Assembly (NCBI GenBank): GCA_023251835.1
Contig: JAHEXZ010000025.1
Coordinates: 1 to 61,847 of the forward strand
Direction of reading: 5' to 3'
Length of the DNA stretch: 61,847 nt
Source: Bacteroidota bacterium
Lineage (GTDB): Bacteria > Bacteroidota > Bacteroidia > 2-12-FULL-35-15
Shown here: in pieces, positions 5,878-61,847 of the stretch
How positions within the stretch are numbered: position 1 is the first letter of the stretch
Layout of the letters: the number at the start of each line of letters is the position of its first letter
The notes under the pieces: model-generated
What the model was told of the DNA's origin: nothing
Seen by the model: only the letters and a program-made list of their open reading frames with translations
The model's database searches: none
Position numbers and translations under genes: made by a program

Positions 5878-5890
5878 AACCTCACCCCAA

Positions 5891-5918
5891 CCCCTCTCCA
5901 CAAGGAGAGGGGCTTTTT
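5891..5918 (+). terminator. Rho-independent terminator made by family A repeat copy A5
   Basis: CCCCTCTCC (5891-5899), loop ACAA and GGAGAGGGG (5904-5912) form a perfect 9-bp stem followed by C and five T. The repeat extends upstream to about 5880. It probably ends the fad transcript. Its U-run ends three bases before the ogt start codon, so ogt expression may depend on read-through. Confidence 0.75.
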
Positions 5919-30138: not shown

Positions 30139-30285
30139 TATACTTCGGCTGAATTAGTTTGCAATAGTTCGACAAGCTCACTAACCATTGCAAACTCATT
30201 CGCTCAGCATTACTGACTCTAACATGATTTGCTATAGTTCGACAAGCTCACTAACCATCGCAAACTCAGTAGATTCAGTATATCT
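30139..30285. repeat. Family B doublet, left arm of the rnpB-flanking inverted repeat (copies B2 and B3)
   Basis: There are two tandem units of about 73 bp, B2 (30139-30212) and B3 (30213-30285). Each is an imperfect palindrome with TTTGCAAT/TTTGCTAT at one side, TTCGACAAGCTCACTAACC in the middle and TGCAAA/CGCAAA at the other. The doublet matches the reverse complement of 30825-30970 with about 13 differences over 146 aligned positions by hand. Confidence 0.9.
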
Positions 30286-30339: not shown

Positions 30340-30344
30340 CAATT

Positions 30345-30717
30345 GCAGGCCGTTCTATCGCCCCAGCTATTAGCAGGGGAGGAAAGTCCGGGCAACACAG
30401 AGCATCCCACTTCCTAACAGGAAGGTTCTTTCTGCAAACAGTGGAAAGAAACAGCAAGTGCCACAGAAAATTACAGCCCTTCAGAAATGTGGGTGATGGT
30501 GAAAATGTGAGGTAAGAGCTCACGGGAATGGTTGGTGACAGCTATTTCGGGTAAACCTTGGGAGTTGAAAGACCAAATAAACCGGAGCTTAAGAGCTGCT
30601 CGCTCAATTCCGGAGGGTAGGTTGCTTGATCCTTCCCGTGAGGGAAGGGCTAGATAAATGATAGAACCTGTCCGCCTTAGGCGGACTCGACAGAACCCGG
30701 CTTACAGGCCTGTTTTT
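30345..30717 (+). ncRNA. rnpB: RNase P RNA, bacterial class A
   Basis: Catalytic RNA of RNase P, which removes tRNA 5' leaders. The conserved 5' core GAGGAAAGTCCGGGC (about 30378-30392) and the 3' core ACAGAACCCGGCTTACA (about 30690) are present. The P1 helix is closed by CAGGCC at 30346-30351 and GGCCTG at 30707-30712, followed by a T-run that probably ends transcription. A perfect hairpin GTCCGCC-TTA-GGCGGAC at 30670-30686 occupies the P19-like position. The gene is bracketed by inverted family B doublets, which do not interrupt it. Confidence 0.95.
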
Positions 30718-30764
30718 AAATTATTCTCCACTGTTTCTTCCATAATTGAAGCCGGGGGAAGGCT

Positions 30765-30824: not shown

Positions 30825-30970
30825 ATTGAATCTTACTGAATTTGCGATGGTTAGTGAGCTTGTCGAACTATAGCAAAGGCCGTTAGATTCAGTAATACTG
30901 AGCGAATGAGTTTGCAATGGTTAGTGAGCTTGTCGAACTATTGCAAATTCATTCAGCCGGAGCATATTCC
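30825..30970. repeat. Family B doublet, right arm of the rnpB-flanking inverted repeat (copies B4 and B5)
   Basis: Two tandem units, B4 (about 30825-30892) and B5 (about 30893-30970), are the reverse complement of the left arm in the same mirror order (B4 matches B3, B5 matches B2). The two longest perfect matches to the left arm are about 50 and 37 bases. Confidence 0.9.
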
Positions 30971-38825: not shown

Positions 38826-38833
38826 TAAATTTG
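38826..38833 (+). promoter_or_regulatory. -7 promoter element of valS
   Basis: TAAATTTG fits TAnnTTTG and lies about 40 bases before the ATG at 38873. No exact TTTG -33 box was found. Confidence 0.45.
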
Positions 38834-38872
38834 TTGTCCCGAATTTCGGGAAAACGAAGTACGCAAATTATT

Positions 38873-41557
38873 ATGGAAATTCCAAAAAACTACGACCCTA
38901 AAAATACAGAGGATAAATGGTATGCCTACTGGTTAAAAAATAAGTTCTTTAAATCAATACCTGATAAACGTGAACCTTATACTATTGTAATTCCACCTCC
39001 AAACGTTACCGGGGTATTGCATATGGGTCATATGCTTAATAATACGATACAAGATGTTCTGATCCGAATGAAACGTATGCAGGGGTATAATGCCTGCTGG
39101 GTACCGGGGACAGACCATGCATCCATTGCTACAGAAGCGAAGGTTGTTGCATTACTAAAAGAAAAAGAAATAAAAAAATCGGATCTGACAAGAGAAGAGT
39201 TTTTAAAACATGCCTGGGAATGGAAAGAAAAATATGGTGGAATCATTTTAAAGCAATTAGAAAAGTTAGGAGCTTCCTGTGATTGGGACCGTACTCGTTT
39301 TACGATGGAAGATGATCTGAGTGAAGCGGTAATTGATGTTTTTATTGATTTGCACAATAAAAAACAAATATATCGTGGTGTGCGTATGGTGAATTGGGAT
39401 CCGCAGGGTTTGACGGCTGTTTCTGACGAAGAAGTTATCTATAAAGAAGTAAATTCAAAATTGTACTATGTTAAGTATAGAATAGACCTCTCCCCTACCC
39501 CCTCTCCTTCAGCAAATGCTCAGGATAAACTCGGAGAGGGAGATCAATTCATTACCATTGCTACTACGCGCCCTGAAACTATATTAGGAGATACAGCAGT
39601 ATGTGTACATCCGGAAGATGAACGTTATAAGCATCTGAAAGGGAAACGAGTGATTATACCGATTGTAAATCGCTCTGTTCCTGTAATTTTTGATGAATAT
39701 ATTGATATGGAATTTGGTACTGGTGCTTTAAAAGTAACACCAGCACATGATATAAATGACTACAATCTTGGGGTTAAACATAATCTTGAGATAATTGATA
39801 CCATTGCTGCTGATGGTAAAATGAGTGCTGCAGCTCAGTTTTATGTTGGTGAAGACCGCTTTGCTGTTCGTAAAAAAATTGCAAAAGACCTGGAAGAACT
39901 TGGATTGATTGTAAAGATTGAGGACATTAAAAATAAAGTCGGTTATTCAGAGCGTACTGATGCTGTTATTGAACCACGATTGAGTATGCAGTGGTTTCTG
40001 AAAATGGATACCATTTCAAAACCGGCATTGGCAAATGTATTGAATGGAGAAATCAAATTAATTCCTGAAAAGTTTATAAACACTTATAAACATTGGATGG
40101 AAAACGTGCATGACTGGTGTATATCGCGTCAGTTATGGTGGGGACAGCGTATCCCTGCATGGTATGATTCAAAGGGTAATACAGCAGTTTGCAAGACAAA
40201 AGAGGAAGCCTTTGAAAAATTAAGAGTTACAAATCCACAGGTTAAAAGCGAAGAAATAAATCAGGATGAAGATGTATTGGATACCTGGTTTTCTTCCTGG
40301 TTGTGGCCAATCAGTGTATTTGATGGTTTTAAAAATCCAGATGGAAGGGATATTAAGTATTACTATCCTACCAATGATTTGGTAACAGCACCGGAGATTT
40401 TATTTTTCTGGGTAGCCCGTATGATTATTGCAGGTTATGAGTATCGTGGGGAGAAGCCTTTCAGCAATGTTTATTTGACAGGAATTGTACGTGATAAGTT
40501 GGGCAGGAAAATGAGTAAATCGTTAGGAAACTCACCCGATCCGATTGATTTAATAGAAAAGTATGGTGCTGATGGAGTACGTGTAGGAATGTTACTGTGT
40601 TCACCAGCCGGCAATGATTTACCTTTTGATGAGAGTTTATGTGAACAGGGACGTAATTTTTCTAATAAGATATGGAATGCATTCAGGCTGATTAATGGGT
40701 GGATACCTCTCTCCAACTCTCCCCACAGGGGAGAGTGTAAGGTAGCTATAGAATGGTTTGAGGCGCGGTTCAATGAGCAGTTGGAAATTATAAATGATCT
40801 GTATTCAAAATACAGAATGAGTGAAGCCTTGATGACTACTTATAAACTGGTATGGGATGATTTCTGCTCCTGGTATCTGGAGATGATTAAGCCGGAATTT
40901 GTGGATGGTAAATCATTACCAATTGATCAAACAACCTATGACGCTACTATTGTTTTCTTTGAGAAACTATTACAAGTTTTGCATCCGTTTATGCCATTCA
41001 TTACAGAGGAAATATGGCATTTAATTAAGGAAAGAGATGAGAAGGAATGTATTATAGTTGCTGAATGGCCTAAAGTACAAAAGTGGAACAATACGATTAT
41101 AAAGGGTTTTGAAGTAGCTATGGAAGTTATTACAAACGTAAGGAATCTCCGTAAACAAAAAAATATTTCCCCAAAAGAGAAAATACAATTATTTGAAAAA
41201 GTAAACCAAGGGGAAGCGAAACAACTATTTGACCCAATTATTGTTAAACTTTGCAATTTGAACGGACTTGAATATATTGATAAAAAGCTTGACGGGGCGT
41301 TTTCTTTTGTGTTGAAGCATGCAGAGTTTTTTGTTCCGCTATCAAAAAATATTGATGTAGCTGCTGAAAAGGATCGTCTGGCAAAAGAACTGGAATACAA
41401 TAAAGGGTTTCTTAAATCAGTTGAGATAAAACTGGCGAATGAGAAGTTTATTGCAAATGCAAAACCTGAATTGGTAGCCAATGAAAGGAAAAAACAAGCT
41501 GATGCAGAAGCAAAGATAAAAGCGATTGAAGAGCAACTGACGGGTTTGGATAATTGA
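38873..41557 (+). CDS. valS: Valyl-tRNA synthetase, with two repeat-derived insertions
   Basis: Class I synthetase of 894 residues from ATG 38873; an in-frame TTG at 38831 would add 14 residues. HMGH at 50-53 and KMSKS at 546-550 are the ATP-binding signatures, the editing domain (FITIATTRPETILGDTAV) is intact, and the coiled-coil C-terminal arm is present. Two short GC-rich palindromic repeats are translated in frame: residues about 206-223 (39487-39543), just before the editing-domain strand, and residues about 612-623 (40706-40740), in the helical anticodon-binding region. Flanking sequence is normal on both sides, so both probably sit in surface loops. The gene stands alone, divergent from DUF1573. 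Confidence 0.95.
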   Translation: MEIPKNYDPKNTEDKWYAYWLKNKFFKSIPDKREPYTIVIPPPNVTGVLHMGHMLNNTIQDVLIRMKRMQGYNACWVPGTDHASIATEAKVVALLKEKEIKKSDLTREEFLKHAWEWKEKYGGIILKQLEKLGASCDWDRTRFTMEDDLSEAVIDVFIDLHNKKQIYRGVRMVNWDPQGLTAVSDEEVIYKEVNSKLYYVKYRIDLSPTPSPSANAQDKLGEGDQFITIATTRPETILGDTAVCVHPEDERYKHLKGKRVIIPIVNRSVPVIFDEYIDMEFGTGALKVTPAHDINDYNLGVKHNLEIIDTIAADGKMSAAAQFYVGEDRFAVRKKIAKDLEELGLIVKIEDIKNKVGYSERTDAVIEPRLSMQWFLKMDTISKPALANVLNGEIKLIPEKFINTYKHWMENVHDWCISRQLWWGQRIPAWYDSKGNTAVCKTKEEAFEKLRVTNPQVKSEEINQDEDVLDTWFSSWLWPISVFDGFKNPDGRDIKYYYPTNDLVTAPEILFFWVARMIIAGYEYRGEKPFSNVYLTGIVRDKLGRKMSKSLGNSPDPIDLIEKYGADGVRVGMLLCSPAGNDLPFDESLCEQGRNFSNKIWNAFRLINGWIPLSNSPHRGECKVAIEWFEARFNEQLEIINDLYSKYRMSEALMTTYKLVWDDFCSWYLEMIKPEFVDGKSLPIDQTTYDATIVFFEKLLQVLHPFMPFITEEIWHLIKERDEKECIIVAEWPKVQKWNNTIIKGFEVAMEVITNVRNLRKQKNISPKEKIQLFEKVNQGEAKQLFDPIIVKLCNLNGLEYIDKKLDGAFSFVLKHAEFFVPLSKNIDVAAEKDRLAKELEYNKGFLKSVEIKLANEKFIANAKPELVANERKKQADAEAKIKAIEEQLTGLDN
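39487..39543. repeat. Family A repeat, copy A7, in frame inside valS
   Basis: It contains CCTCTCCCC...CTCTCCTT and ...CTCGGAGAGGG arms around a loop with GCAAATGCTCAGGATAAAC. It shares a 28-base identical core with copy A8 in aspS (39513-39540 and 49078-49105). It is translated as [17 protein letters not shown]. Confidence 0.85.
40706..40740. repeat. Family A repeat, copy A6, in frame inside valS
   Basis: CTCTCCCC and GGGGAGAG arms around ACA, with a CCTCTCTCCAA shoulder. It is translated as PLSNSPHRGECK between IN-GWI and VAIEWFEARFNEQ, a place where other ValRS proteins have only a few residues. Confidence 0.8.
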
Positions 41558-48216: not shown

Positions 48217-50019
48217 TTATTTTTTCAGAACTATCCCCAATTCATCCAATTGTTCCTGTGAAATAACAGAAGGAGAATCGATCATTACATCACGGCCGGA
48301 GTTGTTTTTAGGGAAAGCAATAAAATCACGGATTACATCGGCTCCACCAAAGAGCGAACACAAGCGGTCGAAACCAAATGCAATGCCTCCATGAGGTGGG
48401 GCACCAAATTCAAATGCATTCATCAGAAAACCGAATTGGGCTTGTGCCTGTTCTTTTGTAAAACCAAGCAGCTCAAACATGCGAGCCTGAAGTTGTTTAT
48501 TAAAAATACGTATTGAACCACCACCAACTTCAACCCCATTTATTACCATGTCATAAGCATTGGCACGTACGGTACCCGGGGTAATATCTAATAATTCAAT
48601 ATCTTCAGGCTTAGGCGATGTGAAAGGGTGGTGCATAGCATGCCAGCGTTGCGTTTCATCATTCCATTCTAATAACGGAAAATCAATTACCCAATGGCAG
48701 GCATATGTATTTTTGTCTCTTAATTCAAGGCGTGTTCCCATTTCCAGTCGTAATTCAGACAATGCTTTACGAGTTTTGTGTTTTTCACCGGCCAATATGA
48801 GTATTAAATCGCCAGGCTGAGCATTAAATGCTGTTGCCCATTTTTTCAAATCTGCCTCATTATAAAATTTATCAACAGAAGATTTAATGGTTCCATCAGA
48901 ATTATAACGGGCGTATACCAAGCCGGAAGCTCCTATTTGAGGGCGTTTTACAAATTCAGTCAGCTCATCCAACTGTTTGCGGGTATAATCAGCAGCACCT
49001 TTTGCACAAATGCCAATAACAAGTTCAGCTTTATCAAAAATCGGAAAAGCCTCACCCCTAACCCCGCTCTCCTTCGACAAATGCTCAGGATAAACTCGGA
49101 GAGGGGAGTTTTGAGAAGTGTTTTTCAATTCAACAAATTTCATATCGAAACGGATATCTGGCTTATCGTTTCCATAATATTTCATTGCGTCTGCATAGGT
49201 CATCCGTGTTAATGGTGGAATATCAATTCCTTTTACTATCTTGAACAAATGACGCACTAATCCTTCAAATGTGTTTAAAATATCTTCCTGCTCAACAAAA
49301 GCCATTTCGCAATCTATTTGTGTAAATTCCGGCTGGCGGTCGGCACGTAAATCTTCATCACGGAAGCATTTAACAATCTGATAATAACGGTCGAAACCAC
49401 CCACCATCAACAATTGTTTAAATGTTTGAGGAGACTGGGGCAAAGCATAAAATTCTCCCTGATTCATACGGGAAGGAACAACAAAATCACGTGCTCCTTC
49501 CGGAGTAGATTTTATTAATACCGGAGTTTCTACTTCGAGAAAATTTAATTTATCCAGATAATTACGTGTTTCAATAGCCATACGATGACGTAATTCCAGA
49601 TTTTTACGAACGGGATTCCTACGTAAATCAAGATAGCGGTATTTCATGCGGATGTCATCCCCCCCATCCGTTTCATCTTCAATAGTAAAGGGGGGAATTA
49701 CAGATGAATTGAGTACAGTTATTTTATCAGGATATATTTCAATATCACCGGTTGGGATTTTATTGTTTTTGGAATAACGTTCTGCAACATTACCAGTAAC
49801 ACTAATTACGTATTCCCTCCCTAATGTACGTGCAATATCCACCAACTCTTTTGGTGAATTTTCTGTTTCAATAGTTATTTGTGAAATGCCATAACGGTCG
49901 CGAAGGTCAATCCAAAGCAGGGATCCTTTATCTCTAAGTCCCTGCACCCATCCACTAATAGTAACCGTTTGGCCAACATGAGCCATTCTTAATTCTCCGC
50001 AAGTATGTGTTCTTAACAT
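48217..50019 (-). CDS. aspS: Aspartyl-tRNA synthetase, with a repeat-derived insertion
   Basis: Class II synthetase of 600 residues with the N-terminal anticodon-binding OB-fold ([25 protein letters not shown]), motif 2 ([18 protein letters not shown]), the GAD insertion domain typical of bacterial AspRS, and motif 3 ([16 protein letters not shown]). Residues of about 303-324 (49050-49112), at the start of the GAD domain, are translated from a palindromic repeat ([20 protein letters not shown]), where relatives go directly from FVELK to a short GFPVFD loop. The reading frame stays open and the catalytic motifs are intact, so the enzyme is probably functional. Confidence 0.95.
49050..49112. 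repeat. Family A repeat, copy A8, in frame inside aspS
   Basis: CCTCACCCC...CTCTCCTT and ...CTCGGAGAGGGGAG arms. It has a 28-base core identical to copy A7 in valS, and both elements run in the same direction on the plus strand although aspS is read from the minus strand. The element is thus translated in opposite senses in the two genes. Confidence 0.85.
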
Positions 50020-51377: not shown

Positions 51378-51508
51378 CGGGATAAATTTCCGCATTGTTA
51401 TATTTCAAAATGGCCAACCCAGATACTTCGACAAGCTCAGTATGACTGGCACACGGGTCACTCTGAGCCTGTCGAAGAGTGTGGGCTGGATTGCGGAAAT
51501 TTATCCCG
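51378..51508. mobile_element. MITE-like inverted-repeat element (~131 bp)
   Basis: The terminal inverted repeats are a perfect 17-bp CGGGATAAATTTCCGCA (51378-51394 and 51492-51508). Inside, a second inverted pair CTTCGACAAGCTCAG/CTGAGCCTGTCGAAG (about 51429-51478) and short CCAACCCA/TGGGCTGG arms allow most of the element to fold into one long hairpin. It carries no gene and lies between the trmH-like gene and the ureohydrolase gene. Confidence 0.75.
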
Positions 51509-61565: not shown

Positions 61566-61736
61566 ATTTTGCGCTTGTTTGTTTTTGTTTTATTAACTCA
61601 TGTTACGCAAAGAAAAAGATTTAAAAATGATAGACTTTTATACTTGTAATGGACAAGAGAATTGAAAGAGAGAAGGGTAATTTTCTCAAAAAGACAATAA
61701 AAATGACTGCTTTAAATAATTCATAATCATAATCAT

Positions 61737-61818
61737 TGTCATTTCGAATCCTGCTGAAAGCAGGAAGAGAAATCTTTGCAATTGATTGACAAGATTTCTC
61801 ACTGCGTTCGAAATGACA
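61737..61818. repeat. Family C palindromic repeat
   Basis: Terminal inverted repeats TGTCATTTCGAA (61737-61748) and TTCGAAATGACA (61807-61818), with a second perfect inner pair GAGAAATCTT/AAGATTTCTC (61767-61776, 61791-61800). The element lies in the intergenic region after the sigma gene and has no coding content. Confidence 0.8.
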
Positions 61819-61847
61819 GGTGGAAATATAGAGATATTCTGAATTAG

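Follow-up and report, generated by a model that had tools for sequence, protein, structure and literature searches.

A dispersed hairpin family lies in frame in aspS, valS and other genes of a Bacteroidota genus and is probably mobile

Results

A repeat shared by two tRNA synthetase genes

The window, meaning the whole 61,847-nt stretch that was analysed, comes from contig JAHEXZ010000025.1 (assembly GCA_023251835.1) of a Bacteroidota bacterium of the 2-12-FULL-35-15 lineage. The features of its two tRNA synthetase genes are:

38831-41557, plus strand: valS, valyl-tRNA synthetase, identified by Pfam and by a PDB alignment starting at residue 15
39486-39542, plus strand: the copy at site 1 of valS, a composite of the form ACCTCTCCCCTACCCCCTCTCC-loop-GGAGAGGGAG that encodes a 19-residue peptide
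39513-39540, plus strand: 28-nt core of the valS copy
40709-40736, plus strand: second valS hairpin (site 2), CTCTCCAACTCTCCCCACAGGGGAGAGT, read as PLSNSPHRGEC
48217-50019, minus strand: aspS, aspartyl-tRNA synthetase of 600 residues and carrier of the element, identified by Pfam (tRNA-synt_2, GAD, OB-fold) and by alignment with AspRS in the PDB
49049-49108, plus strand: whole aspS element, in which the head GCCTCACCCC is followed by the spacer TAACCCCG, the CTCTCC-25-nt loop-GGAGAG hairpin and the tail GGGAG
49067-49103, strandless: hairpin CTCTCC...GGAGAG of the aspS copy
49073-49097, plus strand: 25-nt loop TTCGACAAATGCTCAGGATAAACTC of the aspS copy, related to the TTCGAC..GCTCAG repeat
49078-49105, plus strand: 28-nt core of the aspS copy, identical to 39513-39540

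The 28-nt core, CAAATGCTCAGGATAAACTCGGAGAGGG, matches exactly at its two positions and is mismatched on either flank. An earlier sequence-only reading of this DNA had reported an identical 28-base core in valS and aspS, on genes of opposite strands, and both the exact match and the Pfam assignments confirm it. The core has the same orientation on the plus strand at both places, while valS lies on the plus and aspS on the minus strand, so that the two copies are read on opposite strands. The TTG start listed for valS is probably too early, with MEIPKNYDPK beginning at ∼38873.

In AspRS the element is translated from the minus strand as a 20-residue peptide, and alignment places 18 extra residues there that are missing from ∼30 relatives and from the closest solved AspRS; where the relatives read KFVELN-DVVKGKDFKVF, aspS has a 35-residue stretch containing the insert. 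The sequence-only reading had placed the insert within the GAD domain. It is indeed present in AspRS, at residues ∼300-322, where it borders the N-terminal side of the GAD domain as matched by Pfam (residues 331-419). An AlphaFold model built with 33 sequences was of middling quality (mean pLDDT 73.7), and residues 309-322 fell below a pLDDT of 50, so the insert is predicted as a low-confidence coil. Other inserts were found in aspS of genomes G006 and G014 and at locus L053. In ValRS, the site 1 insert precedes ITIATTRPET, at a place where relatives have a short turn, and Thermus ValRS is without it.

The core is part of a larger hairpin element

Comparison of copies indicates that the 28-nt core is the loop plus the 3′ arm of a larger element, correcting the repeat extent first proposed. 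Extended comparison gave the consensus RCCTC(A/T)CCCC-N-CCCTCTCC-[loop]-GGAGAGGG, and the C-rich end conserved across copies, RCCTC(A/T/G)(C/G)CC, is followed by a short spacer and then by a GC-rich hairpin; head and hairpin are conserved in both G000 and G010. Copies of the family measure ∼33-58 bp, the short ones spanning 28-34 nt from CCTC to GGAGAG and the composites 52-54. Most have loops of 3-8 nt, and the 25-nt loop is known from four copies (valS, aspS, contig C12 of the same genome, and one in genome G008). This long loop is a variant of the TTCGAC..GCTCAG(G) dispersed repeat that is common elsewhere in the same genome. As single-stranded DNA, the composite hairpins are of unremarkable stability (z of 0.04 for aspS and -0.78 for valS), and the hairpin nature of the copies with 25-nt loops therefore rests on comparison with the family. 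A search of the window with Rfam left the element unmatched, returning RNase P and one tRNA only, and no exact core fragment was found in the viral contigs searched.

The genome-wide search that had been proposed was run with the core and with the hairpin. In this genome the exact 28-mer occurs only in valS and aspS; a near copy with 2 mismatches lies on contig C12, and another near copy is present in G008. The pattern CTCTCCN{2,32}GGAGAG gave 86 matches in the 4.1-Mb genome, some places being counted twice, compared with 6 for the reversed control, and shuffles led us to expect 0 matches to the 28-mer at up to 3 mismatches, in agreement with the earlier argument against chance. Across 36 genomes of the same genus the same pattern gave 1235 matches and its reversed control 71, with 0 to 107 copies in each genome and the hairpin present in most of them. 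The hairpin family is dispersed in both orientations, in several reading frames and through many genomes of the genus. Two intergenic members lie in the window:

5879-5913, plus strand: short-loop copy ACCTCACCCCAACCCCTCTCCACAAGGAGAGGGG
2637-2668, strandless: hairpin CTCTCCCGACCTCCCCCAAAAGGGGAGGAGAG, directly after an ORF, a looser relative

Copies are scarce in genes and show no general avoidance of stop codons

Placement was surveyed at 48 listed sites, ∼44 after duplicates were removed, classified partly by eye. Conserved proteins accounted for ∼10 of the ∼44 (valS twice, aspS, thiC, paaZ, mfd, uvrA, metH, kbl and an integrase-like ORF), signal peptides for 4 and doubtful N-termini for ∼5, and the remaining sites were leaders or intergenic. 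Since only ∼14 of the ∼44 copies are in coding sequence, and the genome, like the window, is ∼87% coding, genes are strongly depleted of copies (binomial p ∼1e-16). At four loci (L198:3005, L183:1501, L195:3004 and L189:2988), hairpins lie between the hydrophobic stretch of a signal peptide and an AxAQ-like cleavage site, as in LLLFSPLLWRGAGGEAFAQ, and the cleavage site is apparently kept.

The sequence-only reading had proposed a mobile element adapted to insertion into coding sequence, to be checked by stop-codon avoidance in all six frames. The check did not bear this out: intergenic copies were no more open than shuffles (4.36 and 4.22 open frames of 6), and of the two composites the valS copy has just 2 open frames of 6 and the aspS copy 3. 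Coding copies had 5.0 open frames of 6, a value that selection alone would give, and the length of the element modulo 3 showed no coding preference, in small numbers. Of the proposal, a dispersed family stands, while adaptation to genes finds no support in the depletion in coding sequence or in the few open frames. The plain reading is insertion regardless of genes, followed by selection.

The same loops have been filled repeatedly

In-frame insertions were seen in alignments to solved homologues for ThiC (two), UvrA and KBL, and against the sequences of relatives for MetH; Mfd, PaaZ, the second valS site and signal peptides also carry in-frame hairpin copies. In G010 the family is found as well in IleRS, LeuRS, MetH and a putative MurC, named from its sequence, and the IleRS and LeuRS copies are in-frame insertions against homologues, the MurC copy also being in frame. 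Reading of the element in both directions and in different frames, as earlier suggested, is seen in several essential genes. The IleRS insert lies just before WTTTPWTLPSN and the ValRS insert just before ATTRPET, which, from what is known of class I synthetases, we take to be equivalent places in the editing region.

Seven same-genus sequences have an insert at valS site 1: four share an orientation, that of G008 is reversed, and the other two are of a third kind. In a valS tree built without the insert columns, the filled sites were scattered among empty neighbors, at least 6 changes were needed, and placing the four alike copies in one clade was rejected (p-AU 4e-5). Because G008 is a near neighbor of the studied genome and has the opposite orientation, separate events are needed; these sequence comparisons indicate that the valS loop was filled by separate events, of which gains and losses are only partly separable. 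In MetH, G000, G010/G018 and G005 have site 1 filled, as does genome G023, which belongs to another family, and site 2 is filled in G000 and G009. Other simple repeats (CCGAACTCCGAACTCCCGACT, AAATCCGAAATCCAAAATCC) occupy the site 2 loop of relatives, at L250, L256, L259 and L269.

When filled and empty sites were compared in G010, G018 and G009, one gap in the mur operon began at GACCTC. No target-site duplication was seen at three G010/G018 sites, where diverged flanks would hide one, and within coding sequence the insert usually takes the place of some residues of the loop.

Discussion

Origin of the copies

We consider the aspS insert most probably to belong to a family of REP-like mobile palindromes that are non-autonomous, are without GTAG or CGTC tags and are kept in tolerant loops. 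Movement of the family is suggested by the comparison of sites and genomes. Copies would arise by transposition or copying via some enzyme and would land without regard to genes, and those in genes would survive only where they keep the frame, bring no stop into it, and fall in a signal peptide or in a loop that tolerates them. Tolerant loops, such as those in the ValRS/IleRS editing-domain region, at the AspRS GAD edge and in MetH, may thereby be colonized repeatedly. Alternatively, the core might have been copied between valS and aspS, which lie 9.5 kb from each other, by gene conversion or recombination, and the sequence-only reading had taken a core confined to these two genes, and explained in this way, as evidence against its own proposal. 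The exact 28-mer is indeed at just two places in the genome, and the exact-core search, with its three copies, would on its own have pointed to gene conversion. The heads of the two copies differ, as do the starts of their loops (TTCAGC and TTCGAC), and the family also lies in other genes. Given the near copies on C12 and in G008 and the genome-wide hairpin family, recombination between valS and aspS cannot account for the whole, and the separate events in the valS loop mean that it is not a general explanation. As a general cause gene conversion is largely refuted, and even for the shared core we regard it as very unlikely.

Local formation of hairpins through template switching or the perfection of palindromes where loops are variable, with no movement of an element, would agree with the frequent substitution of loop residues at coding sites instead of clean additions, with the lack of visible target duplication, and with the presence of other simple repeats in the same MetH loop. 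We nevertheless find it improbable, since the head RCCTCACCCC, which is outside the hairpin, is common to copies at unrelated places, the 25-nt loop is common to several loci and two species, and the mur-operon gap starts at the head. That the insert is functional, with the peptide or an mRNA hairpin tuning translation or the enzyme under positive selection, could be argued from the repeated use of the same loops and the retention of inserts by essential genes; however, one loop holds different peptides, frames and orientations, most relatives carry no insert, and the AspRS segment is predicted to be low-confidence coil, leaving this with very little likelihood. A narrower form of the mobile palindrome reading, in which a RAYT (Y1/HUH) transposase moves the family as in an ordinary REP family, is possible although we doubt it. 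Counts of hairpins and of Y1_Tnp matches rise together across the 36 genomes (Spearman 0.57, p 3e-4, uncorrected for kinship or genome size), but the genome’s three Y1/RAYT-type genes each sit among hairpins of other sequence, not of the CCTCACCCC/CTCTCC type, a search of their flanks for the family hairpin found only other hairpins, and G011 and G006 have 37 and 16 hairpins, respectively, with no Y1 match in either. It is unlikely that the family represents a mobile palindrome of a new class, in which loops are exchanged while stem and head stay constant and a mover enzyme with site preferences makes recurrent landing pads of homologous loops in essential enzymes; if so, the ValRS/IleRS editing regions and the MetH and AspRS loops would supply Bacteroidota with new stretches of peptide.

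Relation to known palindromes

Rickettsia provides the best-known palindromes within genes, and scattered cases of REPs are known from other bacteria. No description of the present family was found in the literature searched, which was short of most subscription journals, the papers listed for the sequences themselves were all unrelated, and the family appears to be previously undescribed, resembling intragenic REPs and Rickettsia palindromic elements (RPEs), which are the published precedent for palindromes within genes. Some GTAG- and CGTC-tagged intragenic REPs are in frame in genes, including uvrA and tRNA synthetases, and different REPs occupy about the same site in recB of two Xanthomonas (PMC3733652). 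Like these, which measure ∼20-40 bp, the family is a small palindrome of high copy number, its composites being longer, mostly outside genes and sometimes in frame within them. It differs in that the copies listed end in neither GTAG nor CGTC, in its C-rich head CCTCACCCC and CTCTCC hairpin, in its Bacteroidota host and in its separate entries into the same valS loop within one genus.

RPEs are palindromes that have entered functional genes, unrelated to one another, without loss of the reading frame (PMC10969869), and the insertions in AspRS, ValRS, ThiC, UvrA, KBL and MetH are alike in this respect. By description (length, peptide and placement), however, RPEs are ∼150 bp long, encode conserved peptides and belong to Rickettsia, whereas the copies studied here are 33-58 bp and their peptides vary with frame and strand. 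The family shares with MITEs a short, non-autonomous, dispersed and palindromic form, but is without a demonstrated target duplication, the terminal inverted repeats of a known IS or a cognate transposase. The 25-nt loop in valS and aspS is also a variant of the motif in the TTCGACAAGCTCA-type dispersed repeats of the same genome, although in valS and aspS that motif sits within the CTCTCC hairpin of another family.

A whole Bacteroidota genus has in-gene palindromes, and the same loop may be empty, filled or reversed among its many species, which makes them a natural series for the rate at which peptide segments enter proteins and for the positions tolerant of them in essential proteins. Inserts of this kind in tRNA synthetases, UvrA and MetH should be taken neither for assembly errors nor for domains.

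Other repeats in the window and genome

K-mer enrichment showed that other repeat families are present. The RNase P RNA gene (30342-30720) is flanked, at 30139-30280 and 30837-30947, by two oppositely oriented dimers of another repeat, of the AATGAGTTTGCAATAGTTCGACAAGCTCACTAACCATTGCAAACTCATT type and ∼70 bp long. The Y1 transposase genes at L172:1982-2503 and L173:1330-2026 have hairpin arrays of their own (ATGATGCCGCTGGCATCAT and AAGCGTAGCGGGACGCTACGCTT) and are likely to be separate RAYT-REP systems. A double TTCGAC..GCTCA hairpin repeat with long identical flanks is found at 51390-51477 and at L151:4549, L159:11176 and L170:163, thus on several contigs and near the contig ends in two. At the end of the window’s own contig, positions 61736-61847 hold a CGAAATGACAG repeat, and the same stretch is present in L152, L156, L164 and L169.
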